A stretch of 64,000 nucleotides of DNA from an uncultured Pontibacter sp. (GTDB taxonomy: Bacteria > Bacteroidota > Bacteroidia > Cytophagales > Hymenobacteraceae). A model generated the notes under the pieces. The model was not told the DNA's origin. It ran no database searches and was given only the letters and a program-made list of their open reading frames with translations. Position numbers and translations under genes: made by a program. Below are positions 1-64,000 of the stretch, piece after piece. Numbering within the stretch: the first letter of the stretch is position 1; each line of letters begins with the position of its first letter. The stretch lies in NCBI RefSeq assembly GCF_947495565.1, contig NZ_CANLZM010000001.1, positions 372,001 through 436,000 of the forward strand. The letters run 5' to 3'.

Positions 1-1834
1 GGGCATCGCTGTAAATGGCGTACAGCACCTTGTCATAAAACACACCGAAACCGCCGCGCAAGGTACTATTGGGAGTCAGTTGGTAATTAAAGCTAATCCG
101 TGGTGCCAGGTTATTGAAATCGCCTTTGCCGCTGCCGCCTTGGGATAGGTTATCGTAATCGTAGCGCAGGCCGAGATTCAGGTTCAGGCGGTCGGTGGCC
201 TGTAGTTGGTCCTCGAGGTATAAAGTATACATGTTTTGCCGCTTGCCAAACGAAGTCGGGCGCAGTTCCACGCTGTAGTTCGTTACCAGCGCATCCGCCG
301 GAATGTCATTTATACTTAAACCCAAGCCGAAGTTTTGAGCGCTTATGTTGGCGAGTTGCTCCTGTGTAAGCTGCACGCGGTAGCTGCCGTTGGGGTTGCC
401 GCCGCCAAAAAGTTCATGGTTGGTGCTCAGGATTTCAGCTCCGGCTCTTAACGTATGGATGCCCATGCTCCAGGTGGCTTTTTGCTGTGCCTGCAGGGTA
501 TGCTGTATACTTTCGAAGGCATAGCCGGGGTGACCTAAAACAGCCACAGTTTCGCCGGTTGGGCCAGCCACAGCAACATCGGGGCTGCCTGGGTTGTCAG
601 GCGAGGCATAATCCCAGCGGAAGCGGGCATATTGCAGGCTCGTTTCCAGCGTCAGGTTGCCGGAGGTGTATACATTGGTGCTGGCCAGGTTAAGCGAGTT
701 GCGCACCTGGTCGCTGGCTGCCGACGGAAAACTCAATCCGCCCGACAAGCCTCCGGCCTGCCGCCCAATGCCCACTACGCCCACATTGGCCCGAATGGCC
801 GAGTGAAAGCGGTCGCTCCAGTAATGGTCCAGCTTGCCCGAAAGGTAGTTGAAGTAGTTTTTGCCGCGCACCGTTTCGTTCACGCCCAAAGCCGGGCTGC
901 GCAGCAAGTTGTCTTTCAGGTCGGTGGTGTGTTCGTAGTTCAGGTAGTAAAACGTTTGCCCTTTAATGATTGGTCCACCCACGCCAAACCCTGCCTGGTA
1001 ACGCTGGAACCCGTCTTTTACCTGGTTGCCGGATAAATCGCGCTGCGCGTAGGGTGAGGAGGCATCCAGGAAACCGGGGCGCGTCAGGAAAAACGCCTCG
1101 CCCTGCAGCTCGTTGCTACCCGATTTGGTTGTGATGTTGATAATGCCGTTGCCCGTGTTCCCAAACTCCGCTGAGTAATTGTTCGTCAGCACCGATACGT
1201 TTTGCACAAACCCGATAGGCATGTTAAAGCGCGACCCACCCAGGAACTGCTCGTTGTTGTCCAGCCCATCGATGAGGTAATTGTTGAACAGCGGGTTAGC
1301 TCCGTTTATACTTACATTGGGCGCCTCCGGGAAAAAGCCTGTGGCCTGCGTTACGTTGGGCAGGCGGTACAGCATTCGGGTTACATCGCGGCCTTCCACG
1401 GGCAGGCTCCTGATCTCTGCAATCCGCATCTCCGACGAAACCTCGGCATTATGCATGTTGATGCGCGTGGTGCTGGGCGCATACACGGTTACTCCCTGCA
1501 AATCCACTTCGCGCTTGTAAGGCAGCACTAGGGTAACCGTGCGTTTAAAGTTTGAGCGTAAAATAACAGGCTCGGATGCGGTGAACGTATAGGTTTCAGT
1601 TTCAGCGGAAAGGATGGTATAGCTGCCAGCGGTGTTAAGGCCGGAGAAAGTGGCAACGCCTTTGCTGTTGGTGCTTTTGCTGGTTTTAAAACCGATGGCA
1701 GCGTTTTGCGCCGTCAGTTGCATGCCCTCCAGCGGCTCCAGTTTGGGGTTGAGTACGGTTACTTCAATGTCGCCTTGCGCCAATGCCGCGGCCATGGGTA
1801 CAAAATACCCGAGTATGAGGAAAAGTCTTCTCAT
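1..1834 (-). CDS. TonB-dependent outer-membrane receptor (3' end cut by window edge)
   Basis: This is a minus-strand gene whose start is the ATG at 1834; its end lies before base 1, so about 611 residues are visible. It opens with a signal peptide (MRRLFLILGY...AALAQ), followed by a carboxypeptidase-regulatory-like beta-sandwich and a plug domain containing SLPVEGRDV and IDGLDNNEQF. Barrel strands with alternating aromatic residues follow. Such proteins sit in the outer membrane and import large substrates using TonB energy; this one resembles the CarboxypepD_reg receptors that lack a SusD partner. No SusD gene is adjacent. It begins 47 nt after the DUF2064 gene on the same strand, so the two may be co-transcribed. 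The substrate cannot be read from the sequence. Confidence 0.9.
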   Translation of the reverse strand, partial: MRRLFLILGYFVPMAAALAQGDIEVTVLNPKLEPLEGMQLTAQNAAIGFKTSKSTNSKGVATFSGLNTAGSYTILSAETETYTFTASEPVILRSNFKRTVTLVLPYKREVDLQGVTVYAPSTTRINMHNAEVSSEMRIAEIRSLPVEGRDVTRMLYRLPNVTQATGFFPEAPNVSINGANPLFNNYLIDGLDNNEQFLGGSRFNMPIGFVQNVSVLTNNYSAEFGNTGNGIINITTKSGSNELQGEAFFLTRPGFLDASSPYAQRDLSGNQVKDGFQRYQAGFGVGGPIIKGQTFYYLNYEHTTDLKDNLLRSPALGVNETVRGKNYFNYLSGKLDHYWSDRFHSAIRANVGVVGIGRQAGGLSGGLSFPSAASDQVRNSLNLASTNVYTSGNLTLETSLQYARFRWDYASPDNPGSPDVAVAGPTGETVAVLGHPGYAFESIQHTLQAQQKATWSMGIHTLRAGAEILSTNHELFGGGNPNGSYRVQLTQEQLANISAQNFGLGLSINDIPADALVTNYSVELRPTSFGKRQNMYTLYLEDQLQATDRLNLNLGLRYDYDNLSQGGSGKGDFNNLAPRISFNYQLTPNSTLRGGFGVFYDKVLYAIYSDA

Positions 1835-1881
1835 CAAGTATAAATCTGTAAATGAAATCAGGAAATGAAGCGGGAGATTAC

Positions 1882-2568
1882 TTACAGAACGGGCGGCGCG
1901 CGCAGGGATTTGGTAGCTACGACAGCTGATGGTATGGGAGAGAAGCTATAATTTATCTTTGTAGGAGCGACCTGCAGCAGTGACCATAATACATGTGTCA
2001 ACTTACCTAAGTTTGAACTGCTGCTAATGCGTAAAATTCCGGCGCGGTCGTCGGTATCGGAAAGTATGGGGGCAAGTATGCTTACTGTAGCGGGTGCGGT
2101 TTGCGCGCAAAGCTGGGCAAAAACGTGGCTGGTGTTCCAGGAAATCTGCCGGAAATCGAGCTGCACCATGCTTTGGCGGCTCAGCCCCATCAGGTATACG
2201 CCACCGTCAGCGGCTCGCCCAAACACAAAGTCTTCTTGCTGTAGTTGGCTGGCGGCGCTTCGGAGCAGGGCAGGTGTAAGGCCGGGCGTATCGTTACCGA
2301 GGCAAATTACCTGCTCGTAACCGGCGGCAAAAGCCTGTGCAAAAGCATGCTCCAAACGCTCCCCGAAGGTATGACCCTGCTGGCTGGCAGAATCAACTAC
2401 AAACAGCGGCAAACCCGACTGCTGCACTACCTTTTTGGTATGGCTGATGAGCTGGGCCGCAATCGCTTTTCGGCGGGCATGGCCGTTGCAGAAATGCTTT
2501 GCCTGCGCCTCCTGGGTGGAGCTGCGGGTAAAAAGCATAACGGCGATATGTGGCGGTGCGGGCATCAA
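1882..2568 (-). CDS. DUF2064 / TIGR04282 family glycosyltransferase-like protein
   Basis: The protein has 228 residues. It has the GT-A-like core of the DUF2064 (TIGR04282) family: GNDTPGL near residues 91-97, in the place of the family's nucleotide/metal-binding acidic motif, then FGRAADGGVYLMGL near 115-128. These proteins are often called rSAM/selenodomain-associated transferases; their substrate is not established and no radical-SAM gene is visible here. The C-terminal 40 residues are poorly conserved in character. It lies just upstream of the TonB receptor in the same direction. The family call is firm, the function is not. Confidence 0.8.
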   Translation of the reverse strand: MMPAPPHIAVMLFTRSSTQEAQAKHFCNGHARRKAIAAQLISHTKKVVQQSGLPLFVVDSASQQGHTFGERLEHAFAQAFAAGYEQVICLGNDTPGLTPALLRSAASQLQQEDFVFGRAADGGVYLMGLSRQSMVQLDFRQISWNTSHVFAQLCAQTAPATVSILAPILSDTDDRAGILRISSSSNLGKLTHVLWSLLQVAPTKINYSFSPIPSAVVATKSLRAPPVL

Positions 2569-2734: not shown

Positions 2735-3550
2735 CTAACTCCCCAGCGAATCAACCTCGGCGTTGGCTGGCATGGCAAACTGCTCTGCAGCCGGTTGCTG
2801 TTGCATCAGTTGCACGTTGTCAAACGAAACCTGGTAGCGTACATCGCCAATCTGGCCGTTTTCATACTTGTAACCCGTTAGCTTGTTTGGCAACAACAGC
2901 CCCTGCTGCTCCTGGTAATCCTCATACTTCAGAGCGTTGAACTGAACATTGTCGCTGCCGAAATAGGTAACCGTGTAGAGCAGCCACTCCATCTGGTTTG
3001 TTTCCGGGTTAATAAGCATGCGGTACTGGTCCTCGGGCGTGTCGCCGATGCCCTGGCCAAAGCTCGTGCCGATGACGCGGTACGTTTTGCCCTGCAGTTC
3101 CAGATCATCCAATTGCTCATAGTTTACACCAGGGTCAGCCAGCACAAAAGGGATGGTATAAAAATAGAAAAACAGGTTATGATAAAATCTGGCAGACTTA
3201 CCCGGATAAGCGGCGCGGTTTGGGCTCACCCATACTTGCTGGCCATTATAACCAATAGTATAGTCGCCTCCCTTTACCAGATCTTTGCGTGTTTTCAGGT
3301 CGATGATATGCGTTTCGGTAGCTGGGTTGCCGCCTAAATCGGTTTGCAGCTCGTATTGCATGCCTCCAAACTGCTGCCATTTTTCAAGGCCTCCGTGTGC
3401 CTGTAGCACTTGCTCAAAGTATGCCGGGAAGGTGGCAGCGGCGTTTATTTCTGTTGTTGACTCAGTCGTTTCCGTCGTTTTATCTTCGGATGGTTGGCAG
3501 GCAGCTAACGCGAGGGCAGCAAGTATAAAGGAGTTGGTAATCAGTTTCAT
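2735..3550 (-). CDS. Lipoprotein with outer-membrane-lipoprotein-sorting-like fold, function unknown
   Basis: I place the start at the ATG at 3550, giving 271 residues with a type II signal peptide (MKLITNSFILAALALAAC). An open frame extends upstream to 3862, but that part has no coding character and would bury the signal peptide. After a Thr/Glu-rich linker the protein reads like the beta-rich LolA/LolB-type family, with phrases such as QVLQAHGGLEKW and NPETNQMEWLLYTVTYFG. It is probably anchored to a membrane facing the periplasm. The opposite-strand neighbour at 3881 is also a lipoprotein. No specific function can be given. Confidence 0.78.
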   Translation of the reverse strand: MKLITNSFILAALALAACQPSEDKTTETTESTTEINAAATFPAYFEQVLQAHGGLEKWQQFGGMQYELQTDLGGNPATETHIIDLKTRKDLVKGGDYTIGYNGQQVWVSPNRAAYPGKSARFYHNLFFYFYTIPFVLADPGVNYEQLDDLELQGKTYRVIGTSFGQGIGDTPEDQYRMLINPETNQMEWLLYTVTYFGSDNVQFNALKYEDYQEQQGLLLPNKLTGYKYENGQIGDVRYQVSFDNVQLMQQQPAAEQFAMPANAEVDSLGS

Positions 3551-3880
3551 GGTTGATAGATTGGGTTTCTTTTTAGATACGATGGCAAAGCTAAGAAGCG
3601 CTGATTTTACTTTTTGTCGGGAAAGCGACAATTCCTCTAATCGCGTTGTGCTTCCTTTATCTTTGCAAAAGTATGCGGAATGGCGCCTTTGGGAAAGGTG
3701 ATATGGCAGGCACAGGATGCTTCTTGTCGAAGGACAAAGGATGCTAAAGTGACACAGCCACGTATAGCTAAGCAAGAAGTCACTTAGAACTTCTCTGAAA
3801 TCAAACCTTAGCTGCATCATTTTAAACATCCAGAAACAGGTGCCACCGCGTAATTTTACCAATTCTTATAAACAAGAACC
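3551..3880. other. Intergenic region between divergent lipoprotein genes
   Basis: These 330 nt separate two divergently transcribed lipoprotein genes. Two sites resemble the Bacteroidota -7 element TAnnTTTG: CAAAGCTA at 3586-3593 (TAGCTTTG on the minus strand, about 36 nt from the minus gene start) and TATCTTTG at 3658-3665 on the plus strand. Neither has a clear -33 TTTG at the usual spacing. The open frame running through here on the minus strand looks spurious. Confidence 0.4.
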
Positions 3881-4639
3881 ATGCGCTTGATGTTGATATG
3901 TATACTTGCTGTGCTGCTGGCAAGCTGTAGTGGCAGCGTTCCAACTGGGGCAACCGGCACGTCACCGCCCTCGCATCAACTCTGGACGGAGCTGCTGAAA
4001 ATGCACGTGAGCGATGATGGCAACGTGAATTACCGAGGCTTTATGCAGGACAAAGCCAAACTGCAGCGCTACCTCGATACGCTCAGCCAAAACCCGCCCG
4101 ACACAACTAGCTGGAGCGAAGCCGAGCAACTGGCCTACTGGATAAATGCCTACAATGCCTTTACCGTGAAGCTGATCGTGGACAATTACCCGCTGGAAAG
4201 TATAACCGAGCTGCACCCGACCCTGCATGTGCCGGGCGTAAACACGGTGTGGCACAAGAAGTTTTTCAGGATCGGCAACCAGAAATCGAGCCTGGATGAG
4301 ATTGAGCACCAAATTCTGCGGAAGCAGTTTAAGGAGCCGCGCATCCATTTTGCCATCAATTGCGCCTCTAAATCCTGTCCGCCTTTAAGGCCGGAGGCGT
4401 ATGAGGCGGGCAAGCTGGAAGAGCAGCTGACGGAGCAGGCCAGGAGTTTCATCAACAACCCGAAGTATAACCAGCTTGAGGCGGAGCGGGCGGAAGTATC
4501 GAAAATCTTCAGTTGGTTTAGCGGCGATTTTACCAAGCAGGGCAGCCTTCAGGAGTATCTGAATAAGTATAGCGCCGTGCAGCTTAAAGCTGATGCAGCC
4601 ATAGCTTACAAGGACTACGACTGGAGCCTGAACGAGTAA
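3881..4639 (+). CDS. DUF547 domain lipoprotein
   Basis: The 252-residue protein begins with a lipobox signal (MRLMLICILAVLLASC, acylated Cys16). A DUF547 domain follows, recognisable from YWINAYNAF at residues 86-94, the downstream VNTVWHKKFF and HFAINCASKSCPPL near 155-168. DUF547 proteins are widespread in Bacteroidota and plants; the conserved Cys and His residues suggest catalysis, but no reaction is established. It probably faces the periplasm. The gene appears monocistronic, with about 70-110 nt before the next gene. Confidence 0.88.
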   Translation: MRLMLICILAVLLASCSGSVPTGATGTSPPSHQLWTELLKMHVSDDGNVNYRGFMQDKAKLQRYLDTLSQNPPDTTSWSEAEQLAYWINAYNAFTVKLIVDNYPLESITELHPTLHVPGVNTVWHKKFFRIGNQKSSLDEIEHQILRKQFKEPRIHFAINCASKSCPPLRPEAYEAGKLEEQLTEQARSFINNPKYNQLEAERAEVSKIFSWFSGDFTKQGSLQEYLNKYSAVQLKADAAIAYKDYDWSLNE

Positions 4640-4684
4640 AAGGCCAGCGATCTGCCGAGGCAGGTGCCCCGTCTGTCGTGAAAC

Positions 4685-4692
4685 TATATTTG
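4685..4692 (+). promoter_or_regulatory. Candidate Bacteroidota -7 promoter element
   Basis: TATATTTG matches the Bacteroidota sigma-A -7 consensus TAnnTTTG. It lies 59 nt before the ATG at 4751 of the FAD oxidoreductase and 20 nt before the alternative TTG start at 4712. I do not see a convincing -33 TTTG, so this is tentative. Confidence 0.35.
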
Positions 4693-4750
4693 ACCGCGTA
4701 ATTACGCTAACTTGAACCCGATTTCAACACAAAAGTCTTTTCACCGACGC

Positions 4751-6139
4751 ATGAGAGAAGCCAAACCCATCGGCGATTTTTGCATCAACTCCTGTGGCCG
4801 CCGCATCGTGATCATCGGCAACGGCATTGCAGGCGTTACCTGCGCGCGGCACTTGCGCAAACGCGACAGCGCCGCCCACATCACCATCATCTCCGGCGAA
4901 ACTGAGCATTTCTTCTCCCGCACCGCGCTTATGTACATTTACATGGGCCACATGAAGTATGCGCACACCAAACCTTACGAAGATAAGTTCTGGGGTAAAA
5001 ACCGCTTAAACCTGGTGTACGACTGGGTAACACATATAGATTTTGAGCAAAAGCAATTACAGCTACAGCAGCAGGAGCCCATTGGGTATGATGTTCTGAT
5101 CTTGGCGCTCGGCTCTACATCCAACAAATTTGGCTGGCCGGGGCAGGAGCTAAAAGGAGTGCAGGGTTTGTACAGTTACCAGGATTTGGAAAGTATGGAA
5201 ACCAACACGCAAAGCTGCCAGCGTGCCGTAGTGGTGGGCGGCGGACTGATCGGGATTGAGATGGCCGAAATGCTGCGCAGTCGCAAAATTCCGGTTACAT
5301 TGTTAGTGCGTGAGCAGGAGTTCTGGAACAATGTGCTGCCGCAGGAAGAGGCAAAATTGGTAAGCCGCCACATCCGCGAGCACCACATCAACCTAAGATT
5401 AGGTGCGGAGCTGGATAAGATTCTGGATGATGGAACGGGCAAGGTAAAAGCGGTGGTTACTAAAGACGGGGAGGAGATTCCGTGCCAGTTTGTAGGCCTT
5501 GCCGTAGGCGTAAGTCCGAACATAGACCTGCTGCGCAACACGGCCCTGGAAGTTAACAAAGGCATTCTGGTGGATGAGCATTTCGCCACGAACATCCCTG
5601 ATGTGTTTGCCATTGGGGATTGTGTGGAGTACCGCACGCCGCCACCGCAGCGCCGCCCTGTAGAGCAAGTATGGTATACGGGCCGCATGCACGGCGAAAC
5701 GCTGGCGCATAACCTGGCGCACCAGCCGGTGCCCTACAAGCCCGGCCCGTGGTTCAACTCCGCCAAATTCCTCGACATCGAATATCAGACTTACGGGCAA
5801 GTACCCAGCACCTGGGAGAAACCTACGGCCAGCTTTTACTGGGAGCACCCCGATGGGCGTACCTGCTTTCGGGCTTTGTTTGATGAAGAAAAACGCACCT
5901 TGCTGGGTGTAAACGCTTTTGGCATGCGGCTGCGCCACGAGTATTTTGATGAAGTCCTGCGCAAGGGGGCAACAGTGGAGCAAGTACTGGAGCAGCTGCC
6001 CACCGCCAACTTCGACCCGGAATTTTACGACAAGCACTACCCAAGTATACTTCAGGCTTTTAACCAGCATTTTGGCACCAGCCTGCAGCCACGCAAAAAG
6101 AAAGAGAAGAAAGGCATCCTTTCCATCTTCGGTTTATAA
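4751..6139 (+). CDS. FAD/NAD(P)-dependent oxidoreductase, partner of a polyferredoxin
   Basis: This is a pyridine-nucleotide-disulfide-oxidoreductase-type flavoprotein of 462 residues from the ATG at 4751; an in-frame TTG at 4712 would add 13. It carries an N-terminal FAD Rossmann motif (VIIGNGIAG near 20-28), a central NAD(P) Rossmann motif (VVVGGGLIGIEMAE) and the second FAD motif (VFAIGDCVEY). No CxxxxC redox disulfide is seen, so it resembles nitrite/rubredoxin-reductase-like oxidases rather than thioredoxin reductases. The C-terminus is basic (RKKKEKKG) and ends in a short hydrophobic stretch. The next gene, 9 nt away, encodes a membrane 4Fe-4S protein, so the two probably pass electrons between NAD(P)H and the membrane. 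Confidence 0.88.
   Translation: MREAKPIGDFCINSCGRRIVIIGNGIAGVTCARHLRKRDSAAHITIISGETEHFFSRTALMYIYMGHMKYAHTKPYEDKFWGKNRLNLVYDWVTHIDFEQKQLQLQQQEPIGYDVLILALGSTSNKFGWPGQELKGVQGLYSYQDLESMETNTQSCQRAVVVGGGLIGIEMAEMLRSRKIPVTLLVREQEFWNNVLPQEEAKLVSRHIREHHINLRLGAELDKILDDGTGKVKAVVTKDGEEIPCQFVGLAVGVSPNIDLLRNTALEVNKGILVDEHFATNIPDVFAIGDCVEYRTPPPQRRPVEQVWYTGRMHGETLAHNLAHQPVPYKPGPWFNSAKFLDIEYQTYGQVPSTWEKPTASFYWEHPDGRTCFRALFDEEKRTLLGVNAFGMRLRHEYFDEVLRKGATVEQVLEQLPTANFDPEFYDKHYPSILQAFNQHFGTSLQPRKKKEKKGILSIFGL
6043..6052. repeat. Palindromic double copy of the window-wide motif (AAGTATACTT)
   Basis: Two overlapping opposite copies of the 7-mer form the palindrome AAGTATACTT inside the FAD oxidoreductase gene. 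The same 10-mer recurs at 21752-21761 and 61693-61702. It is a representative of roughly 140 single copies spread across the window. Confidence 0.7.
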
Positions 6140-6148: not shown

Positions 6149-7693
6149 ATGAAAACGCTACAAAAATTTGGATTCGGTATATTTCTGACGGCGCTGCTAC
6201 TCTTTAACCTGTTGCTTTTTATAGGCGATTTCAGGTTAACCGAGCAGAAGCTGCAGCAGGTTACCAGCCTCGAAAACTACGAGATTCTGCGCCCGGAGTT
6301 AGCGCCCATCCTTGGTAAAACTTACAACACCAGCTTTGCCTTTTCGCAGGATTTTAGAAAATACTTTGGGGCCTACAACACGCGCCAGCAGGAAAACGAG
6401 CAGTGGGACCGCGTGATCTGGGACGATTATACTTTTGCCGCCACCAAAGCCGCCAGCGTAGGTTTTGTGGCCAATAACAAGCTGCTGCTCCTGTTGCTGA
6501 CCATTGCCTTGGGCACGGCTGGCGCACTTCTCAACATCCTGCCCAAATACAGCGATGAGCCTGCCGGCATCAAGCACAACGGCGTCATGTTCTCATCCAA
6601 CAAATCGCGGGGCTTTATCGGGATTATACTTGGCGCTTACCTGATCGGTATTTACGTGCTGCTGTACTGGTTTCCGGAGCTTATCGTGAACTGGACGCTG
6701 CTCGTGGACCCGCTGAGCCAGCTGCTTTCGGGCGGCCCGGCCAGCCAGTGGTTCCTGTACGGAACCATTTATACCTTAGCTATTTTGGTGATGGGCGTGC
6801 GCATGTTCCGCAAGTACCGGGGCAACAAGTACCAGACGCTACGCACCTCATCTGTCATGTTTTTTCAGCTGAGTTTCGCCTTTCTGATTCCGGAGATTCT
6901 GGTGCTGCTCAACAAGCCCTGGCACGACTTTAAAAACATCTGGCCGCTGGATTATACGTTCTTTTTTGATTACCGCGTAGAGGGTTTCTTGAACAGCGGC
7001 AGCATCGGGATGCTCATGTTTGTGTGGGGAATTCTGCTGATCATTTTAGGTGTGCCGTTAATGACGTACTTTTACGGCAAGCGCTGGTACTGCAGTTGGG
7101 TTTGCGGATGCGGCGGCCTGGCCGAAACAGCCGGCGACCCCTACCGCCACCTCTCTGATAAATCCTTAAGTGCCTGGCAAGTGGAACGCTGGATGGTGCA
7201 CGGGGTGCTGGTTTTTGCCGTGGTGATGACGCTGCTAACGATTGTTAATTACTTTTCCGGCTTCGAGCTGCTGGGCCAATGGACAAACACGCTGCACGAG
7301 TGGTACGGCTTCCTGATTGGGGCGGCCTTTGCCGGTGTGGTGGGTGTAGGCTTTTACCCACTGATGGGCAACCGTGTGTGGTGCCGTTTTGGCTGTCCGC
7401 TGGCGGCTTACCTGGGTATTGTGCAGCGTTTTAAATCGAGGTTCCGGATTACCACCAACGGTGGCCAGTGCATTTCCTGCGGCAACTGCTCTACCTATTG
7501 CGAAATGGGAATTGATGTGCGCTGGTATGCGCAGCGTGGCCAGAATATCGTGCGCGCCTCCTGCGTGGGCTGCGGCGTGTGCGCCTCGGTTTGCCCACGC
7601 GGTGTGCTCAAGCTCGAGAACGGACTGGAGCAACAGCGCATTGTGGATATTCCTATACTTACCGGCAACGAGTCGGTGAAGGTGCTAAGCTAA
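6149..7693 (+). CDS. Membrane polyferredoxin (NapH/CcoG-like 4Fe-4S protein)
   Basis: The 514-residue protein has several hydrophobic membrane spans. Within the membrane part are the cysteine clusters CSWVCGCGG and CRFGCPL, like those of NapH/CcoG/RdxA-type membrane ferredoxins. Near the C-terminus are two [4Fe-4S] motifs, CISCGNCSTYC (Cys 441, 444, 447, 451) and CVGCGVCASVCPRG (Cys 472, 475, 478, 482). It starts 9 nt after the flavoprotein gene, arguing for one operon and one electron-transfer complex. The electron acceptor is unknown; there is no nitrate reductase, cytochrome oxidase or Rnf gene close by. The N-terminal periplasmic segment of about 80 residues is unusual for NapH. Confidence 0.88.
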   Translation: MKTLQKFGFGIFLTALLLFNLLLFIGDFRLTEQKLQQVTSLENYEILRPELAPILGKTYNTSFAFSQDFRKYFGAYNTRQQENEQWDRVIWDDYTFAATKAASVGFVANNKLLLLLLTIALGTAGALLNILPKYSDEPAGIKHNGVMFSSNKSRGFIGIILGAYLIGIYVLLYWFPELIVNWTLLVDPLSQLLSGGPASQWFLYGTIYTLAILVMGVRMFRKYRGNKYQTLRTSSVMFFQLSFAFLIPEILVLLNKPWHDFKNIWPLDYTFFFDYRVEGFLNSGSIGMLMFVWGILLIILGVPLMTYFYGKRWYCSWVCGCGGLAETAGDPYRHLSDKSLSAWQVERWMVHGVLVFAVVMTLLTIVNYFSGFELLGQWTNTLHEWYGFLIGAAFAGVVGVGFYPLMGNRVWCRFGCPLAAYLGIVQRFKSRFRITTNGGQCISCGNCSTYCEMGIDVRWYAQRGQNIVRASCVGCGVCASVCPRGVLKLENGLEQQRIVDIPILTGNESVKVLS

Positions 7694-7736
7694 ATACCCG
7701 AAGCCTGGCCCTGTTTTGATTATACTTTTAACCTGA

Positions 7737-21675: not shown

Positions 21676-21811
21676 ATGCTCAAAGTAGCGCTACAGTATC
21701 GCTTTTATACTTTGTTTGAGTGGTTATTAGATTACTGCACCTTCACCACCGAAGTATACTTCAGAGCAGGAAAAGCAGGAGGTGAAAACGCTACACGATG
21801 GGAAAGTATAA

Positions 21812-31547: not shown

Positions 31548-33260
31548 ATGAATACATCAGCAGCAACAGCATTATCGCCCAGAGCCGGCCTTACCGCCGA
31601 GCAGTTTATACAGAAATACGCCAACCATCCAACTTACATTCCGCCGCGCGGGCCGGAGCTTCATGCCAAAAACTGGCAAGCCGAAGCTGCCCTCCGCATG
31701 TTCCTCAATAACCTGACCGACGAAGTGGCCGAAGCCCCAGCTGATCTGGTTGTTTATGGTGGAACTGGCCAGGCGGCACGTACGCCGGAGGATGCCCGCA
31801 AAATAATAGAGGTGCTGCTGGAGCTGGAGGAGGATGAGAGTCTGCTGGTACAGTCGGGGAAGCCGGTGGGCAAGGTGCGTACCCACCCTGAAGCGCCGCG
31901 CGTGCTTATCGCCAACTCTAACCTGGTGCCGCATTGGGCCACCTGGGAGTATTTTAACGATCTGCGCAAGCGTGGCCTGATCATGTATGGCCAGATGACG
32001 GCTGGCAGCTGGATTTACATCGGCTCACAGGGCATTTTGCAGGGAACTTATGAAACCTTTGCTGCCTGCGGCGATAAATATTTTAACGGTGATCTGCGCC
32101 ACAAGCTGCTCGTAACAGGCGGTTTAGGCGGCATGGGCGGCGCTCAGCCTTTGGCAGCCACCATGGCAGGCGCTACTTTTCTGGGCGTGGATGTAGACCC
32201 GGAGCGCATTAAAAAGCGCCTGGAAACCCGCTACATCGATAAAATGACGTTTGATTATGAGGAGGCGAAAACCTGGGTAATGGAAGCCAAGGAGCGAGGC
32301 GAGGCTATTTCGGTAGGCTTGGTTGGCGACATCGGCGACGTGCTGGAGCGCCTTATTGCAGACAACATCACTCCTGAAATCCTGACCGACCAAACCTCAG
32401 CCCATGACCCGCTGAACGGCTACGTGCCGAACGGCTTGAGCTTAAAAGAGGCCCTGGAGCTGCGCCAGCAGGACCCGGCAAAGTATAAAGAGCTGTCGCT
32501 GAAAAGTATGGCCCGCCATGTAGGCTTTATGTTGGAGTTGCAGCAGCGCGGCAGCAAGACTTTTGACTATGGCAATAACCTGCGCGAGTTCGCACAGCAG
32601 GGTGGTGAGCCGAATGCCTTCAACATACCGGGCTTTGTGCCGGAGTACATTCGTCCGCTGTTCTGCGAGGGCAAAGGTCCGTTCCGCTGGGCGGCACTGT
32701 CCGGCGACCCAGAGGATATTCGAGTGACGGATGAAGCCCTAAAGGAACTGTTTCCGGAGAATACGCACATGATCAATTGGCTGGAAGAGGCGCAGGAGAA
32801 AGTGGCGTTTCAGGGATTGCCATGCCGTATTTGCTGGCTGGGCATGGGGGAGCGCGAGAAAGCCGGATTGCTGTTTAACCAACTGGTGCGCGAGGGGAAG
32901 GTAAAAGCACCTATCGTGATTGGCCGCGACCACCTGGACTGCGGCTCCGTAGCCTCTCCGTACCGCGAAACTGAAGGTATGAAAGACGGCTCCGATGCCA
33001 TCTCAGACTGGCCGCTGCTCAACCTGATGGCCAACACGGCTGGCGGCGCTACCTGGGTATCGTTTCACCACGGTGGCGGTGTGGGCATCGGTTACTCGCA
33101 GCATGCCGGTATGGTTATTCTTGCCGATGGCACCGACCGTGCCGAGCGCTGCTTACGCCGCGTGCTCCACAACGACCCAGCCATGGGTATCTTCCGCCAC
33201 GCCGACGCCGGCTACGAAACGGCTCAGGAGAATGCAAAGGAGTTTGGGCTGGAGCTATAA
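31548..33260 (+). CDS. hutU: Urocanate hydratase
   Basis: The 570-residue protein is full length for urocanase, which converts urocanate to imidazolonepropionate in histidine breakdown. NAD binds at [12 protein letters not shown], and the conserved [11 protein letters not shown] carries the active-site Cys. The gene starts with [12 protein letters not shown] and the family homology begins at about residue 14. hutI and hutG follow in the same direction, after an unusually long 594-nt gap. It has only one copy of the AAGTATA repeat. Confidence 0.96.
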
Positions 33261-41175: not shown

Positions 41176-42879
41176 CTACAAAAGCTTTAGATTACGAACG
41201 GCTTTTCGATAAGACTCAAACGCCTGGGCATTGGTTGTGCTGTCGGTGAAAATTTCCAGAATGCCAGCTCCTGCCTCTGCCTTAAAAAAGTCACTGAGCG
41301 CCTGCTCCAGCTCACTTAAAGTATAAACCGGGGTGTATTGCATCTTAAAATCACGTGCCGTGTTCTCCGCGTTCAGTGCCTGGTGCGTTTCAAAGTATGG
41401 CTCAAGCTCGGGCTGCTGTTTGGGTCCGTCAATCAACCTGAAAATACCGCCGGCGTGGTTGTTTAGCAGTACGATGCGCAGGTTTTGGGGCAGGTAATTG
41501 TGCCATAATCCGTTGCGGTCATAGAAAAAGGCAAGGTCTCCGGTGATAAGCGTTGTGATGCCCGGGCTGGTGAGGGCGCAGCCAACAGCGGTGCTGGTGC
41601 TGCCGTCTATGCCGCTGGTGCCCCGGTTAGCATACACGTGCACTTGTTGCCCAGGCGACAACCCTACTATATTGGCATAGCGTACCGACATAGAGTTTGC
41701 TAAGTGCAAGTTGCTGTGCTGGGGCAGCTGCTGAAGTACACGGGCTACAATTGGCAGCTCACTGTAGTTTGCTTGTGCTGTGTAATGTTTCAGAAAAGCG
41801 TCGGCTGCTTTGTTCGCTCCTGCCCAGGCTGCAGCAAAAGTACCAGCTGATTTTACACTTCCGGCCATGGCTGCAAAAAAGCTATGAGGCGAGCAGCGTA
41901 TAATCTTCGTAAGCGACTGAAACGTGTCTGCCACTTGGCCTGCTGGCTGTAGGTGCCACTGCGCGGCAGCTTTATACTTGCGCAGGTATAGTTTCAGTGA
42001 TTTAGAGATGATAGACTTGCCAAAAGTAATGAGCAGGTCGGGCTGAAGCGCTGCCAGAAGCTCCTGATTAGGGTTGGCAAAAATCACATCCTGATGGCGC
42101 ACTGCACTCGGCAAATGATGTGTGTTGCTGATGATGTCGCCTACTATTACAGCGCCAGTAGTATCGGCAAATGCCTGAATGGCTTGCAGCAATGCCTCGT
42201 CCTTTTGATCGTGCCTGGCCAGCACCAGCACCTTTCTATACTTCAGGATTTCCTCTTGCAACTTTAGAGCCTGCGCGGCGCTCAACATAAACGCAGGCTG
42301 TTCTTCCTCAATAATCTTAACCTGGTTGTTATAGGTCAACTCCTCTTGCTGGCCAGGGTAAAAAGGCTCCCGTAGCGGAACATTTATATGAACCGGACCG
42401 GCAGGGAATTCCGCCGCTTCGTTCAGCGCCTCAGACACCATCCGCTCACTGTGCCACACGGCATCCGGGTGAGTAAAATCAACGGGGAAAGTATAGCTTT
42501 GCTTGATGTGCTGCCCGAATACGTTGTGTTGGCGAATGGTTTGCCCGTCCAGCTGATCAATCCACTCTGGGGGTCTATCGGCGGTAAGTATGAGCAAGGG
42601 CACCTGCTGAAAATATGCTTCGGCCACGGCAGGGGCGTAGTTTAACGCAGCTGTGCCAGAGGTGCACACCAGCACGGTTGGTTTACCTGTTGTCTGGGCA
42701 ATACCAAGCGCGATAAACGCAGCCGCGCGTTCATCGCTAATTGTGCGCACCGTAAAATTGGCGTGGCGGGCAAAGGCGATCGTCAGGGGCGCGCAGCGTG
42801 AGCCCGGCGACAGCACCGCATGCTCCACACCTTTCTGGGCGCAAATCTCAGCTATATTAACAACAGGTTGGATGATCAT
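41176..42879 (-). CDS. menD: 2-Succinyl-5-enolpyruvyl-6-hydroxy-3-cyclohexene-1-carboxylate synthase
   Basis: The 567-residue ThDP enzyme joins isochorismate and 2-oxoglutarate in menaquinone synthesis. The N-terminal LSPGSRCAPLT (residues 23-33) and the ThDP-activating Glu50 in ISDERAAAF are visible. The C-terminal ThDP/Mg segment includes GDLAFFYDRNGLW and NNHAGGIFRLI. Length and order fit MenD well. It is followed downstream by the DoxX pair and menE; menF lies upstream. Confidence 0.94.
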   Translation of the reverse strand: MIIQPVVNIAEICAQKGVEHAVLSPGSRCAPLTIAFARHANFTVRTISDERAAAFIALGIAQTTGKPTVLVCTSGTAALNYAPAVAEAYFQQVPLLILTADRPPEWIDQLDGQTIRQHNVFGQHIKQSYTFPVDFTHPDAVWHSERMVSEALNEAAEFPAGPVHINVPLREPFYPGQQEELTYNNQVKIIEEEQPAFMLSAAQALKLQEEILKYRKVLVLARHDQKDEALLQAIQAFADTTGAVIVGDIISNTHHLPSAVRHQDVIFANPNQELLAALQPDLLITFGKSIISKSLKLYLRKYKAAAQWHLQPAGQVADTFQSLTKIIRCSPHSFFAAMAGSVKSAGTFAAAWAGANKAADAFLKHYTAQANYSELPIVARVLQQLPQHSNLHLANSMSVRYANIVGLSPGQQVHVYANRGTSGIDGSTSTAVGCALTSPGITTLITGDLAFFYDRNGLWHNYLPQNLRIVLLNNHAGGIFRLIDGPKQQPELEPYFETHQALNAENTARDFKMQYTPVYTLSELEQALSDFFKAEAGAGILEIFTDSTTNAQAFESYRKAVRNLKLL

Positions 42880-45562: not shown

Positions 45563-47260
45563 ATGGCTGAAGTTATAAGAATGCCCAAGATGAGCGACAC
45601 GATGACAGAGGGGGTGATTGCATCTTGGTTGAAAAAAGAAGGCGACAAAGTGAGCTCCGGCGACATACTGGCCGAAGTGGAAACTGACAAGGCTACCATG
45701 GAGCTAGAGTCGTATGAAGACGGTACACTGCTGCACATCGGTCCTAAAAAGGGCGATTCTGTACCTGTAGATGCTGTTATCGCTATCATCGGTAAAGAGG
45801 GCGAGGATATCTCCGGGCTTCTGAGCGAGGTGAAAGACGGTGGCGCACCAGCTTCCAAATCTGAACAGAAAGAGGAGAAGCCAGAGCCGAAGAAAGAAGA
45901 AACCAAGCCTGCTGTAGCCAAAGAAGAGGCTCCCGCTAAAACCGCTGTTGACACAAGCAACATCAAGGCTTCTGTAATCCGCATGCCAAAAATGAGCGAC
46001 ACCATGACAGAAGGCGTACTGGTGAGCTGGCAGAAAAAAGAAGGCGACAAAGTTAAGTCCGGCGATATTCTGGCTGAGGTGGAAACCGATAAGGCTACCA
46101 TGGAGCTGGAGTCTTATGAAGACGGCACCTTGCTTTACCTGGGCGTAAAAGAAGGCGACTCTGTTGCCGTTGATGCCATTATCGCTATCATAGGTGAGGA
46201 AGGCGCTGATTATAAATCGCTTTTAGGAGCAGCCTCATCAGACACGCAGGAGCGTCAGGAAAATGCAAAGACTGATGAAGCAATTGAGGCAGGAGTAGAT
46301 GCTACTACCTCTGAGAAAGTGCAGGATACTAAAGTAACCGATACTGCTGAAGAGGAAGCTGCTGCTATTTCTGAGAATGGCCGCATCAAGGCCTCTCCGT
46401 TGGCGAAGCGAGTTGCTAAAGAGAAAGGCTTTAAGCTGTCCCAAATAAAAGGCACCGGTGAAGGTGGCCGTATTGTGCTGCGCGACGTTGAGAATTTCAC
46501 TCCGTCTGCCGCACCGCAAAAAGCTACTGCGCCACAGGCCGCCGCACCTCAGGCTGCTGCCATACCTGGCGCACCAGCCGAGGCTTACGAAGAAGTGAGC
46601 GTATCGCAGATGCGCAAGGTGATTGCCCGCCGCCTGGCCGAGAGCAAGTTCACGGCGCCGCACTTCTACCTGACCATGGAAATTGATATGGACAAAGCCA
46701 TCGAGGCGCGCGCCAGCATCAACGAAGTGTCTCCGGTGAAGGTATCGTTTAACGACCTTGTGATCAAAGCTGCAGCTGCTGCCCTACGTCAGCACCCGGC
46801 GGTTAACTCATCCTGGTTAGGAGACAAGATCCGTTACAACAAGCACATCAACATTGGTGTAGCCGTAGCGGTAGAAGAAGGTCTGCTGGTACCGGTTGTT
46901 CGCAACGCTGATTTTAAATCTTTATCTGCCATTTCTGCGGAGGTAAAAGACTTGGGTGGCAAAGCGAAAACCAAGAAGCTGCAGCCGTCTGATTGGGAAG
47001 GAAACACCTTTACCATCTCCAACCTGGGCATGTTCGGCATCGAAGAATTCACGGCTATCATCAACCCACCAGATGCCTGCATTATGGCAGTGGGCGGTAT
47101 TAAGCAGATTCCGGTTGTGAAGAACGGTAACATCCAGATCGGAAACGTTATGAAGGTAACGCTTTCCTGCGACCACCGCGTAGTGGATGGTGCTGTAGGC
47201 TCAGCTTTCCTGCAAACATTCAAAAACCTGCTGGAGAATCCGGTGAGAATACTGGTTTAA
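45563..47260 (+). CDS. pdhC: Pyruvate dehydrogenase E2 (dihydrolipoamide acetyltransferase), two lipoyl domains
   Basis: The 565-residue protein has two near-identical lipoyl domains, each with ETDKATMELESYEDG (lipoyl Lys43 and its repeat near 175), joined by a Glu/Lys/Pro/Ala linker. An E3/E1-binding domain (KASPLAKRVAKEKGF) near 272-310 and the catalytic domain with SCDHRVVDG (His near 537) follow. It transfers acetyl to CoA in the core of the complex. The E1 and E3 genes are not adjacent. It contains no exact AAGTATA repeat, unlike most genes here. A strong terminator follows. Confidence 0.94.
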   Translation: MAEVIRMPKMSDTMTEGVIASWLKKEGDKVSSGDILAEVETDKATMELESYEDGTLLHIGPKKGDSVPVDAVIAIIGKEGEDISGLLSEVKDGGAPASKSEQKEEKPEPKKEETKPAVAKEEAPAKTAVDTSNIKASVIRMPKMSDTMTEGVLVSWQKKEGDKVKSGDILAEVETDKATMELESYEDGTLLYLGVKEGDSVAVDAIIAIIGEEGADYKSLLGAASSDTQERQENAKTDEAIEAGVDATTSEKVQDTKVTDTAEEEAAAISENGRIKASPLAKRVAKEKGFKLSQIKGTGEGGRIVLRDVENFTPSAAPQKATAPQAAAPQAAAIPGAPAEAYEEVSVSQMRKVIARRLAESKFTAPHFYLTMEIDMDKAIEARASINEVSPVKVSFNDLVIKAAAAALRQHPAVNSSWLGDKIRYNKHINIGVAVAVEEGLLVPVVRNADFKSLSAISAEVKDLGGKAKTKKLQPSDWEGNTFTISNLGMFGIEEFTAIINPPDACIMAVGGIKQIPVVKNGNIQIGNVMKVTLSCDHRVVDGAVGSAFLQTFKNLLENPVRILV

Positions 47261-53268: not shown

Positions 53269-54456
53269 ATGAAACAAAAGAACTGGAGTGTATTGCTCGG
53301 TGCGGCTTTTCTGATGGCTACCTCTGCCGTTGGTCCCGGCTTCCTGACGCAAACTACCGTTTTCACGCAGCAATTGGCCGCAAGTTTCGGCTTCGTTATA
53401 CTTATCTCCATTATTCTGGATATCGGTGTGCAGTTGAATGTGTGGCGGGTGATTGCGGTGTCGGAGCGGCGGGCGCAGGACATCGCTAACTTAGTGCTGC
53501 CAGGTTTGGGAGCCGTTATCTCTTTCCTGATTGTGCTGGGTGGCTTGGCTTTCAACATCGGCAATGTGGGCGGTGCCGGGCTTGGCTTTAATGTGCTGCT
53601 GGGCATCTCTCCGGAAGTAGGGGCCATGATTGCCGCCGGCATGGCGATTGCTGTTTTCCTGGTGCGTGAGGCCGGTAAGGTAATGGATCGTTTTGCGCAG
53701 GTAATGGGCTTTCTGATGATTCTGCTTATTGTATACGTGGCCGTTACGTCTGCGCCGCCACTGGGCGAGGCTGTTGCTAAAACCTTCCTGCCGGATGAGG
53801 TGGATGTGCTGGCGATTGTTACCCTGGTGGGCGGCACAGTGGGCGGCTACATTACGTTTGCCGGAGGCCATCGACTGCTGGATGCCGGTATAAAAGGCAA
53901 GGCATCGCTTGGTGAGGTAAATACCAGTGCGGTGTCGGGTATTACGGTGGCCTCGGTTATTCGGGTGTTTCTGTTTCTGGCGGCGCTGGGCGTAGTAAGC
54001 AAAGGGCTGGTGCTGGATGCTGCCAATCCGCCGGCTTCGGTTTTCCAGTTGGCGGCAGGAGAGGTGGGGTATAAGCTTTTTGGTGTGGTGATGCTCTCTG
54101 CTGCGGTTACCTCCGTTATTGGCTCTGCTTATACTTCTGTATCCTTTCTTAAGTCGTTTAGCGGCGTTATCCGCAGGAATGAGAATTGGGTGATCATCGG
54201 GTTTATACTTATCTCCACGGCCATTTTCGTAACTATTGGCCAGCCGGTGCGCCTGCTTATACTTGCCGGAGCTCTGAACGGCCTTATCTTGCCGCTTACA
54301 TTGGGAGTTATACTTTACGCAGCCTACAAGCCAAGCATTATGGGCGATTACCGGCACCCGCCGCTGTTAACGGTTTTCGGTGTGCTGGTGGTGCTGGTGA
54401 TGGCATACCTCGGCGGTTACACGCTGCTGCAGCAGTTGCCAAAGCTATTTAATTAA
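53269..54456 (+). CDS. NRAMP-related membrane transporter of the 5-oxoprolinase operon
   Basis: The 395-residue protein has about 10-11 membrane spans and NRAMP-like order, resembling B. subtilis YcsG, whose gene lies beside ycsF/kipI/kipA. The metal-binding DPGN of true NRAMP transporters is GPGF (residues 22-25), and the TM6 MPH motif is not present (YITFAGGH). Divalent-metal transport is therefore doubtful; uptake of 5-oxoproline or a related amide is a reasonable guess from position. It holds five TATACTT repeats, all in the same orientation. Confidence 0.83.
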   Translation: MKQKNWSVLLGAAFLMATSAVGPGFLTQTTVFTQQLAASFGFVILISIILDIGVQLNVWRVIAVSERRAQDIANLVLPGLGAVISFLIVLGGLAFNIGNVGGAGLGFNVLLGISPEVGAMIAAGMAIAVFLVREAGKVMDRFAQVMGFLMILLIVYVAVTSAPPLGEAVAKTFLPDEVDVLAIVTLVGGTVGGYITFAGGHRLLDAGIKGKASLGEVNTSAVSGITVASVIRVFLFLAALGVVSKGLVLDAANPPASVFQLAAGEVGYKLFGVVMLSAAVTSVIGSAYTSVSFLKSFSGVIRRNENWVIIGFILISTAIFVTIGQPVRLLILAGALNGLILPLTLGVILYAAYKPSIMGDYRHPPLLTVFGVLVVLVMAYLGGYTLLQQLPKLFN

Positions 54457-54723
54457 GTGCTTTGATTGTTGAAAGCCTGCATTGCTGTGCGTTCAGGCAA
54501 GTATGGCGAGAGTCGCGGTGCATTTAACTTTAAGGCTTATACTTTCGAAATCAACCAAAGTATAAGTTTATACTTGCTGCACTTGCAGTTATACTTCATA
54601 TTACCTCAAATCTGATGATCTGCCTCATGCACCGTTTTACTTATACTTCATCTTACTGATATACGCTGCAGCCAACAATCAAAATCCAGCAATCAACAAT
54701 TTCCCACTCCCGTAAACCTGGGT
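54457..54723. repeat. Intergenic cluster of AAGTATA/TATACTT repeats
   Basis: This 267-nt gap has five exact copies within 111 nt (54538, 54558, 54569, 54590 and 54642) plus the variant AAGTATG near 54499. Two face each other as AAGTATA-AGTT-TATACTT. No gene or terminator is evident. Confidence 0.75.
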
Positions 54724-58954: not shown

Positions 58955-60619
58955 ATGAGATCAAAATACAATTACTTTAAAAAGATAGTGTGTGCCTCCC
59001 TGTTTGCGGCAGGCACACTAGCAACTACGAGCTGCGATAGCTACCTGGATGTAAACACAAACCCGAACGGACCTGACCAAGTGGTGGCACCGCAGTTTTA
59101 CCTGCCAGCCATTCAGTCTGAGCTTGTTTTGGGTATTCAGTTTGATGCCCGTTACCTGGGCCGCTATATCCAAAACTGGAACTGGCGCGATGTAGACAAC
59201 ACCTGGGATCGCCATGGGTATGTGTCTGGTAGCGATGCGGCCGGCCAGTTATGGCGCTCCGTGTATTGGAACATGGGGGAGAACCTGACCGATATGATCA
59301 GCAAGGCTGAGGAAGAAGAGCGCTGGGAATTTGTGGGCGTAGGTTACGTACTGCGTGCCTACGGCTGGCAGATGCTGACGGATTACCACGGTGAAATTAT
59401 TGTGAAGCAGGCTTTTGAGCCAGGCAGAACAACCTTTGACTATGACTCGCAGGAGTATGTGTACGAAGAGGTAAGACGCCTGACCATGTTGGCCATCGAA
59501 AACCTGCAGCGCACAGACGGTAAAGTGGGCAACTCTACTTTAGCGCAGGGCGATCTGATTTACAGCGGTGACCGTGAGAAGTGGCTTCGCTTTGCTTACG
59601 GCCTGCTTGCTATTAATGAAAGCCGTCTAACTAACAAATCAACCTTTAACCCGGATAAAGTTATTGAGTATGTAGACAAGGCGCTGAGAAGCAATACCGA
59701 CGACGCATCTATTCGTTTTGAGGGTGCTGTTAGCTCAGATACAAACTTCTTCGGCCCGCGCCGTGGTAACCTGAACCCGTACCGCCAGTCTAAGTTTATT
59801 GTAAGCCTGCTGGATGGCACCAACCCGGTGCTGAACGACCCGACCTTACAGAAAGTAGACCCGGTTTTTGCAGATGCGCACCTGAAAGACCCACGCCTGC
59901 CAGTTATGTTGGCTCCTGCTAACGACGGCAAATATCGTGGTGTAACTCCGGGTGTCGGCGTAAACGAGTATACGGTTGCCAATGAGCGTCCGCGTAACCT
60001 TTGGGCTACCCCAACAGATAACGTAGCGGCTACCACGGCGAACAAGTACCTGTTTGGCAACAACGCACGCTTCCCGCTGATGACGTATGCGCAGCTGCAG
60101 TTTATTAAAGCAGAGGCAGCATACATTAAAGGCGACCAAAGCATGGCGCTTGATGCGTACACCAAAGGCGTAAACGCACACATGGATTTTGTTAAGTCTT
60201 TCGTGACCAACGACTCTTCTACACCAGAAGATGAAGTGGCCATTTTCCAGGCCCGCCGTGACGCGTACATGGCCAGCGAGGAACTGATGCCGAAGACTAC
60301 TGCGGAACTGACCCTGCCGAAGATCATGCTGCAGAAATACATCGCGCAGTGGGGTTGGGGCTTCATTGAGACCTGGTCTGACCTGAGAAGGTATGACTAC
60401 ATTGCAAATGAAGACGGCACCATCGACGATAACCCTGCAAATAATGTTTTCGCTGGCTTCGTGCTTCCAAGCCCATTGTTTGGCCTGAATCAAGGCAAGC
60501 CAGCTTACCGTTTCCGTCCGCGCTATAACTCAGAGTATATGTGGAATGTGGCGTCTTTGGAATCAATCGGTGGCTTAGAGCAGGATTACCATACAGTAGA
60601 AATGTGGTTTAGTAAGTAA
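58955..60619 (+). CDS. SusD/RagB family nutrient-binding lipoprotein
   Basis: The 554-residue protein has a lipobox (TLATTSC) and matches the SusD-like family in length and in TPR-like helical segments (RYLGRYIQNWNWRD, LRAYGWQMLTDYHGEI, YAQLQFIKAEAAYIKGD). It caps the SusC barrel outside the cell and captures substrate. It starts 12 nt after the SusC gene. It contains no exact AAGTATA repeat in 1.67 kb. Confidence 0.94.
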   Translation: MRSKYNYFKKIVCASLFAAGTLATTSCDSYLDVNTNPNGPDQVVAPQFYLPAIQSELVLGIQFDARYLGRYIQNWNWRDVDNTWDRHGYVSGSDAAGQLWRSVYWNMGENLTDMISKAEEEERWEFVGVGYVLRAYGWQMLTDYHGEIIVKQAFEPGRTTFDYDSQEYVYEEVRRLTMLAIENLQRTDGKVGNSTLAQGDLIYSGDREKWLRFAYGLLAINESRLTNKSTFNPDKVIEYVDKALRSNTDDASIRFEGAVSSDTNFFGPRRGNLNPYRQSKFIVSLLDGTNPVLNDPTLQKVDPVFADAHLKDPRLPVMLAPANDGKYRGVTPGVGVNEYTVANERPRNLWATPTDNVAATTANKYLFGNNARFPLMTYAQLQFIKAEAAYIKGDQSMALDAYTKGVNAHMDFVKSFVTNDSSTPEDEVAIFQARRDAYMASEELMPKTTAELTLPKIMLQKYIAQWGWGFIETWSDLRRYDYIANEDGTIDDNPANNVFAGFVLPSPLFGLNQGKPAYRFRPRYNSEYMWNVASLESIGGLEQDYHTVEMWFSK

Positions 60620-61413: not shown

Positions 61414-61438
61414 GCTTCACGGCTTTTCATAGGACTGC

Positions 61439-61471: not shown

Positions 61472-61556
61472 GTTTTCTGTTCTAATAACCATACTTGCTG
61501 ATGCAGTGTTTAAGTATAGTTATTTCTCTGCCCAAGCAGCATAGCTCTCTCTAAAA

Positions 61557-61585: not shown

Positions 61586-61615
61586 GATATAACCAACATC
61601 AATAGGATAAAGGTA

Positions 61616-63196: not shown

Positions 63197-63457
63197 GAAG
63201 GTAGGTGTTAGTGATGGACGGTACTATTAGAAGCCACGTTTTGGTTTAAGCTAGAATCTGGTATGAGAATCATATTTATAGCTAAATATAGTATTTGGAT
63301 GTTATTTAGGAAACAGAGAGGGTAAAATAAAGCGCACAATTTGTACTATATATTTTTAAGCGGAAGAGTGAGAAGAAACTGTCATAACATAGGCTTCTTT
63401 TGTAGTAAAAGGGCTAAATTTACCTTCTAACACGCTAATCATTAATCACTAATTGCT

Positions 63458-64000
63458 TTGAAAAAAAGTTCTAATCTCTTGCTCACCCTTATTGCCTTCC
63501 TGCTAGTGGGGGCAATGCATGCGGAAGCGCAGAGGAGCACCTCTAAGACCCGCCGCAGTTCAACTCAAAAAGCAGCTGCCAAAGTTTTTAACCCAGCCAC
63601 TGACCCGCCGTTTCTGGATGCCAATCAAGCTTGGGTAGACTCCGTATTTAACACGCTGAGCCCGGAAGAGCGCATTGCGCAGCTGATCATGATTCCGGTA
63701 TACTCTAACAAAGACCAGGCGCACATCGACTCTGTAAGCAGGCTGATAACAAAGTATAAAGTAGGTGGGCTGATCTTCTTTCAGGGTGGCCCGGTGCGGC
63801 AGGCGCACATGACCAACCGCTACCAAAAGGAAAGCAAAGTGCCGCTAATGGTAAGTATAGACGGGGAGTGGGGCCTGGCCATGCGCCTCGACAGTACAAT
63901 TAAGTTTCCGTACCAGATGGCCTTGGGTGGCATAGAAGACGAAAAACTGGTATATGAAATGGGAGCCGAAATTGCCCGCCAGTGCCGCCGCTTAGGGATA
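63458..64000 (+). CDS. Glycoside hydrolase family 3 protein (start only)
   Basis: A frame from TTG at 63458 codes for MKKSSNLLLTLIAFLLVGAM, a signal peptide ending HAEAQ, and 181 residues before the window ends. The visible part is the GH3 TIM-barrel start: LSPEERIAQLIMIPVY, KYKVGGLIFFQGGP, PLMVSIDGEWGLAMRLD and FPYQMALGG. The pattern fits beta-N-acetylhexosaminidases (NagZ-like), which in Bacteroidota often carry a C-terminal beta-lactamase-like domain. The catalytic residues lie beyond the window. Confidence 0.85.
   Translation, partial: MKKSSNLLLTLIAFLLVGAMHAEAQRSTSKTRRSSTQKAAAKVFNPATDPPFLDANQAWVDSVFNTLSPEERIAQLIMIPVYSNKDQAHIDSVSRLITKYKVGGLIFFQGGPVRQAHMTNRYQKESKVPLMVSIDGEWGLAMRLDSTIKFPYQMALGGIEDEKLVYEMGAEIARQCRRLGI

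Follow-up and report, generated by a model that had tools for sequence, protein, structure and literature searches.

A chromosome-wide word with clade-specific spellings in Pontibacter resembles a self-DNA uptake signal

Introduction

Why would a bacterial chromosome repeat one short word thousands of times, in genes and gaps alike? The question arose from a 64,000-nt stretch of an uncultured Pontibacter sp. (Bacteroidota; contig NZ_CANLZM010000001.1, positions 372,001 to 436,000), hereafter the window. A sequence-only reading of this DNA had reported heavy iteration of the 7-mer AAGTATA and its complement TATACTT, and the roles it suggested were organisation of the chromosome, a signal for uptake or repair, or a link to methylation. 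Two proteobacterial families, both with type IV pili, are known to use uptake words. Among the open-licence papers listed in our searches, we found no paper on the words described here, none on an overrepresented genome-wide motif in Pontibacter and no Bacteroidota uptake word. Among those listed, a single Pontibacter paper contains 'natural transformation', on LexA, and PMC5217627 mentions neither Pontibacter nor Bacteroid-. The feature is real, strong and undescribed in that literature. Here we argue, with a probability of roughly 0.6 judged from genome sequences, that the word, AAGTATRV in its general form, is probably an uptake-signal-like mark of self DNA, kept by natural transformation and read by a factor other than a pilus.

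Results

A chromosome-wide word

Recounting the plus strand of the window returned exactly the copy numbers claimed by the sequence-only reading for AAGTATA (75) and TATACTT (67), and gave 27 AAGTATG and 29 CATACTT for the near-variant. AAGTATA is the top-ranked 7-mer of the window.

1..64000, 75 plus and 67 minus: AAGTATA/TATACTT, 142 copies on both strands together, including 31 AAGTATAAA and 28 TTTATACTT

The same 7-mer ranks first in 464 kb sampled from the source genome (window included), where 863 copies were observed against 66.7 expected from a zero-order, 90.6 from a second-order and 743.8 from a fifth-order Markov model. Over the whole 4.52 Mb genome, AAGTATAAA occurs 1351 + 1344 = 2695 times and the reversed word 26 + 23 = 49 times, a control that shows clear enrichment. 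AAGTATAAA and, in relatives, AACTATAG (up to 8208 copies) agree with what uptake words show, a short word at about one copy per kb and far over expectation. The fullest form of AAGTATRV is approximately AAAGTATAAA, with little information content beyond it, and AAGTAT is spread fairly evenly over 20 stretches of the source genome (37-76 per 20 kb).

The sequence-only reading had tied its claim to a whole-genome excess of more than twofold over a fifth-order Markov expectation. In our 464-kb sample, rather than the whole genome, the excess is 1.2-fold and formally falls inside that bound; for the window alone, 142 copies compare with 123 expected. We judge this test circular, because copies of the word raise the counts of AAGTAT and AGTATA from which the fifth-order model is built. 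That such a model absorbs the count is what favours a bias of composition or mutation, or an assembly artefact, as the source of the word. This explanation is barely credible given the rarity of the reversed word, the low counts in similar-sized relatives within the genus and the conservation of sites described below.

Dialects within the genus

An order-wide sample of 194 genomes comprised 4 of Pontibacter and 190 outside it. Two of the four were word-rich and none of the 190, which peaked at about 3.3 times the reversed control, the highest ratios coming from small counts. Rufibacter and Sabulibacter showed only weaker enrichments, unrelated to the Pontibacter words. Within 50 Pontibacter genomes, AAGTATAAA exceeds 1000 copies in 23 and lies between 84 and 572 in 27. 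Ranking of 7-mers at one orthologous locus revealed that most genomes poor in AAGTATA carry another word instead. This locus surrounds a gene of the window that served as anchor, with 18-20 kb sampled in 48 relatives and 8 kb in the 49th:

41176..42879, minus strand: menD-like gene (TPP enzyme domains); 4 copies of the word; anchor by which the orthologous region was located in 49 relatives

Dialects were assigned by reading the top-ranked 7-mers at these loci in the window and the 49 relatives. AAGTATRV characterizes 20 genomes (source genome included), AGGTATRV 12 and AACTATRV five, and two genomes carry AACTATA and AAGTATA together. Odd words were seen in G140 (TATATA-like) and G232 (GGTATAA). 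Nine of the 50 have no clear word, four of them examined with more sequence; this class includes the borderline G210 (572 AAGTATAAA), G185 and G207, all weakly enriched. Content is mixed in G208, filed as AAC with 1062 AAGTATAAA, and in G239, filed as AAG with 907 AACTATAG. Sequence logos of the three main dialects show a common core, NNS-TAT-R-V (NNSTATRV), with differences confined to the first three letters and nearly uninformative flanks. Across whole genomes, AGGTATAG numbers 2823-5222 in the 12 AGG genomes and does not exceed 833 in any other, and AACTATAG numbers 6288-8208 in the five AAC genomes and at most 476 outside the AAC genomes, the bilingual ones and G239.

The dialects sort into clades, congruent with phylogeny as expected of an uptake word. 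A four-gene tree with 57 rows, built by a quick search and weak at 12 of 54 inner branches, requires at least seven state changes if the outgroup is given a state of its own. One part of the genus preserves a graded series, running from G239 through its bilingual neighbours G206 and G235 to the five AAC genomes. Along it, AACTATAG rises from 907 to 2002, 2617 and 6288-8208 copies, and AAGTATAAA drops from 3463 to 2242, 1968 and 345-1062.

Three other repeats came to light in these surveys. In G194, the interval C1:1944098-1946633 holds AGGTATAG at least 39 times at a spacing of ~66 bp, which inflates the AGGTATAG count of that genome; a CRISPR array, or some other tandem repeat with the word in its unit, may lie here. 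In 60 kb of the word-free G226 (L053, L154, L155), a repeat family around GAGTTAGAGA / ACTCTCTAACTCC is strongly enriched. In Rufibacter loci L095, L096, L098-L101 and L105, CATCGGCG and related 7-8-mers are moderately enriched and may represent a separate word of lesser strength.

Conservation and switching of sites

The sequence-only reading had called for a look at orthologous sites, and conservation is evident there. In eight pairs of word-bearing genomes, the word is intact at 60-89% of orthologous sites versus 30-56% for all 7-mers, a baseline that is not composition-matched. Lost sites in these pairs mostly differ by one or two substitutions. Conserved sites, gained and lost through point mutation, are what an uptake word would leave. 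Spread as mobile-element copies was rejected, since the flanks bear no signature and most losses are substitutions, and directed repair creating the word was rejected for want of a consistently depleted one-step neighbour.

Across dialect borders, some sites hold their position as the dialect letter changes. AAG sites of G225 align with AGG in 29 of 226 alignments (those from one clade not being independent), versus 3.7% for the same single change in other 7-mers, and are still AAG in 4 of 226, versus 14.4% of other 7-mers unchanged. The change from AAG to AAC at a site reaches 14-16% versus about 1%. With each site counted once if it switched in any genome, the figures are 5/24 for AGG and 7/30, 7/32 and 9/34 for AAC.

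Recently acquired DNA is poor in the word. The second contigs of three genomes, which are probable plasmids without replicon proof (sampled over 60 of 116 kb, 80 of 204 kb and all 74 kb), hold 67 copies in 213.8 kb where 33 are expected, a 2-fold excess, compared with 303 copies in 240 kb (25 expected) and a 12-fold excess on the chromosomes of the same genomes. One second-contig stretch, L120, is an exception, with 20 copies in 20 kb and thus a chromosome-like density. Five inserts within comM, described below, contain 29 AAGTATA in 55 kb, or 0.10-0.96 per kb at 36-43% GC, as a raw density for which no expectation was computed.

Placement relative to genes and replication strands

Using open reading frames (ORFs) called mechanically in the window, we located 100 word copies within ORFs, spread over all six frames and orientations. 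ATA-CTT is their commonest reading (25/100), and the earlier description of the word as occupying genes and gaps in every frame, often as ATA-CTT, was accurate. Orientation relative to ORFs is mixed (44 same, 56 opposite), and a transcript-level role was rejected on this basis. Copies are denser between ORFs (5.23 per kb) than inside them (1.79 per kb), and 104 permuted words tilt towards inter-ORF DNA likewise, leaving no location preference after composition matching. A role as terminators or fixed-spacing pairs was set aside: close pairs are present, but the loci are orthologous and enter the count repeatedly, so the pairs were not used. Individual features of the window are as follows.

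31548..33260, plus strand: urocanase (hutU) gene, 1 copy
45563..47260, plus strand: 2-oxoacid dehydrogenase acyltransferase (pdhC) gene, 0 copies
58955..60619, plus strand: susD-like gene, 0 copies
54130..54648, ~520 bp: densest word cluster, nine copies (starts 54130, 54204, 54258, 54309, 54538, 54558, 54569, 54590, 54642), where ORF 53269-54456 ends and in the following gap
6043..6052: palindromic overlap AAGTATACTT, with further ones at 21752 and 61693 (3 in the window)

The scarcity noted by the sequence-only reading in susD, pdhC and hutU is real; its explanation by counter-selection is not supported. Eight of the 42 genes longer than 600 bp in the window lack any copy, against a Poisson expectation of 6.3, so the empty susD and pdhC genes are at chance level.

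We found no replication-strand bias in the source genome, where AAGTAT occurs 463 times on leading and 455 times on lagging strands (p 0.82), counted over those 13 of 21 stretches whose GC skew is clear. The word is therefore balanced, as the sequence-only reading had said, in a manner unlike Chi or KOPS, and a replication-strand signal of that kind was rejected for this genome. Equal strand use with copies both inside and between genes is the pattern of an uptake word, a small tilt in orthologous loci aside: the menD loci of AAG, AGG and AAC genomes, which are not independent, hold 954 copies on the strand of positive GC skew versus 776. This tilt is one reason to weigh a Chi-like word, read by cytoplasmic AddAB/RecBCD so that word-bearing fragments are spared, and likewise driven by recombination. 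A length of 7-8 bp, variation between lineages and an anticipated dependence on recombination of incoming DNA would also suit such a word. The strand balance of the source genome points the other way, and we regard this explanation as distinctly unlikely.

Binding sites of a nucleoid or chromosome-organising protein, selected site by site, are a further candidate. The fairly even spread of AAGTAT and the above-background conservation agree with it. Such sites would, however, have been respelled by the thousand in nested clades, and they show neither a location preference after composition matching nor polarity in the source genome, which makes this explanation improbable.

Methylases

A matching methylase was another suggestion of the sequence-only reading. 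In the only methylase family searched, N6_N4_Mtase (PF01555), none was consistent: matches occur in 31 of 50 genomes and are missing from 19, word-rich ones included, such as G204 and G209 with more than 4200 copies. A PF01555 enzyme as general maintainer of the word is unlikely on this sporadic distribution. The source genome has a PF01555 match at G000:C6:228998-229959 in two overlapping pieces, one with stops, and this gene may be decayed.

These data bear on a word resembling cyanobacterial HIP1 and the alternate HIPs, kept by a DNA methyltransferase or methylation-coupled repair, with dialects set by methylase specificity. Like HIPs, the Pontibacter words are very frequent, extend over the whole chromosome and give way to other words in some lineages (PMC4390886). 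HIPs are GC-rich palindromes with cognate methyltransferases; the main Pontibacter words are AT-rich and, by their logos, non-palindromic, with AAGTATACTT occurring only three times in the window, and they have no consistent PF01555 partner. Directed repair would have left depleted one-step neighbours, none of which is consistent though a few ratios are low, and the link to comM reported below is not predicted. We consider maintenance by methylation unlikely.

Competence genes and comM lesions

Genes of natural transformation are present throughout the genus sample, with relatives of ComEC, DprA and ComM each in 50 of 50 genomes. Lesions affect comEC in two, dprA in two and comM in six. In G214 and G231, comEC and dprA are both broken by stops and frame changes, and comM is interrupted by a stop in the former and by a frame change in the latter. 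Five control genes were free of stops in these two genomes and most tested neighbours read in one frame; the alignment of one neighbour gene contains a stop both in G214 and in G209, and in two of 13 comparison genomes, G213 and G239, a single control-gene alignment contains one stop. In G229, the genome with most AACTATAG copies, comEC (L197) matches in two frames without a stop, which reflects a frame change or a sequencing error.

The remaining comM lesions are inserts of ~6 to 17 kb that split the gene in G194, G195, G215 (two inserts) and G216 at two positions, near residues 216-223 and 350-355. Scanning of ten ORFs revealed a phage-integrase-type protein in four of the five inserts. These low-GC inserts (L202, L203, L204, L205, L206; G195, G216, G194, G215) carry cargo like that of defence islands, including a type ISP restriction-modification protein in the G194 insert and a ThiF-domain protein in one insert.

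When the 20 AAG genomes are ranked by AAGTATAAA density, the five that carry a broken comM take the bottom five places (exact Mann-Whitney p 1.3e-4). Their values are 0.231, 0.261, 0.395, 0.413 and 0.414 per kb, compared with 0.476 to 0.968 in the others, all subject to genome sizes rounded to 0.1 Mb for the relatives. The menD locus alone gave p 2.6e-4 (there, broken G215 outranks intact G160), and raw AAGTATAAA counts in place of densities gave p 5e-4. Lower density thus accompanies broken comM in five of five AAG genomes, with four supported pairs on the tree, and not in the single AGG genome with such a lesion.

Discussion

Overall, uptake or transformation is the best fit among the roles proposed by the sequence-only reading. 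The dialects, their switching in place, the sparse second contigs and inserts, and the reduced word density of five of the six genomes whose comM is broken speak for it; a polar chromosome signal found no support in the source genome. We infer that the genus transforms in nature, that recognition takes place at uptake and that the word spreads by drive. In the mechanism we propose, a recognition factor in competent Pontibacter cells would prefer word-bearing fragments, which would pass ComEC, be processed by DprA and ComM and enter the chromosome by recombination. Word-bearing alleles would as a result be copied more often, and drive could carry the word to thousands of ordinary, tolerant sites. 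A shift in the specificity of the factor would let a new dialect displace the old one site by site, a broken pathway would let the word decay, and foreign DNA would stay word-poor. The more specific proposal, sequence-specific transformation that dispenses with type IV pilus and secretin and employs a TAT-core receptor respelled several times within one genus, we would put at about even odds on the genomic patterns.

Several observations weigh against an uptake-signal-like word. The first concerns machinery. The secretin (PF00263) was found in 0 of 50 genomes, and a full-length pilus ATPase (PF00437) in none of the 50, not every first-look candidate having been scored; PF00437 matches are weak pieces covering ~40-66 of 370 positions, just over the cut-off in three genomes. 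A type IV pilus was accordingly not found as a whole. A pilus with a word-binding minor pilin gains no support from PF00437 or PF00263, the minor pilins themselves not having been searched, and the known receptor type seems absent from Pontibacter. The failure to find secretin and full-length ATPase makes it unlikely that the recognition factor is a classical type IV pilus. Second, nine word-free genomes have no lesion in ComEC, DprA or ComM, and these three proteins therefore do not suffice for the word; a lost or unspecific receptor would explain such genomes. Third, the word-poor pair G207/G185 also keeps AAGTATA above average (6/10 and 6/8 versus 43%).

Further objections concern the comM link, which was noticed after the ComM search rather than predicted. 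Normalised to the reversed-word control, the link is weaker (p 0.066). The tree resolves five losses, from which four supported independent pairs can be drawn; every pair points the expected way (sign test p 0.125), under a density threshold chosen after the data were seen. G231, with all three genes broken, has the third highest density of the 12 AGG genomes, perhaps through young lesions, which is a guess. G214 shows a one-mismatch excess per perfect word of 0.52 versus 0.32-0.63 in other word-bearing sets, which is not decisive. Finally, we found no uptake or transformation data for Pontibacter in the open-licence literature.

The DNA uptake sequences (DUS) of Neisseriaceae have dialects that follow core phylogeny and a minor pilin, ComP, as receptor (PMC3630211). 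Both they and the Pontibacter words are short, non-palindromic and present in thousands of copies, with phylogeny-congruent dialects and transformation genes; both keep a shared core, TAT in the three main Pontibacter dialects and CTG in DUS, and in both a genome may hold two dialects at once (PMC3630211). Unlike DUS, the Pontibacter word belongs to another phylum, and searches of 50 genomes found neither a secretin nor a full-length pilus ATPase. The uptake signal sequences (USS) of Pasteurellaceae are comparable in their 9-mer scale, subclade spellings (two for USS), origin by mutation rather than insertion and occasional loss of competence genes, and differ in having flanking AT-rich repeats, where Pontibacter flanks are nearly uninformative, and uptake shown by experiment (PMC1626085). 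The word probably works like an uptake word, and we keep it apart from the DUS and USS families, since a search for the pilus machinery that serves them did not recover it in full.

Two further parallels concern transformation itself. Riemerella columbina, also of the Bacteroidota, transforms and prefers its own DNA; unlike Pontibacter, it has no clear uptake word in PMC7965970, where the top k-mers of Table 3 are A-rich runs. In Acinetobacter, mobile elements, some with defence genes, interrupt comM (PMC11472951), as do the inserts at two gene positions in Pontibacter, four of five of them integrase-bearing.

If the uptake reading is true, AAGTATRV would be the first uptake word in Bacteroidota, as far as the literature searched shows. 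Sequence-specific DNA exchange would then have evolved separately, without pili, which would point to an undiscovered DNA receptor. The series of living intermediates from AAG to AAC makes the change of a genomic uptake word directly testable. The word would also offer one way for a transformable Bacteroidota cell to prefer its own DNA.

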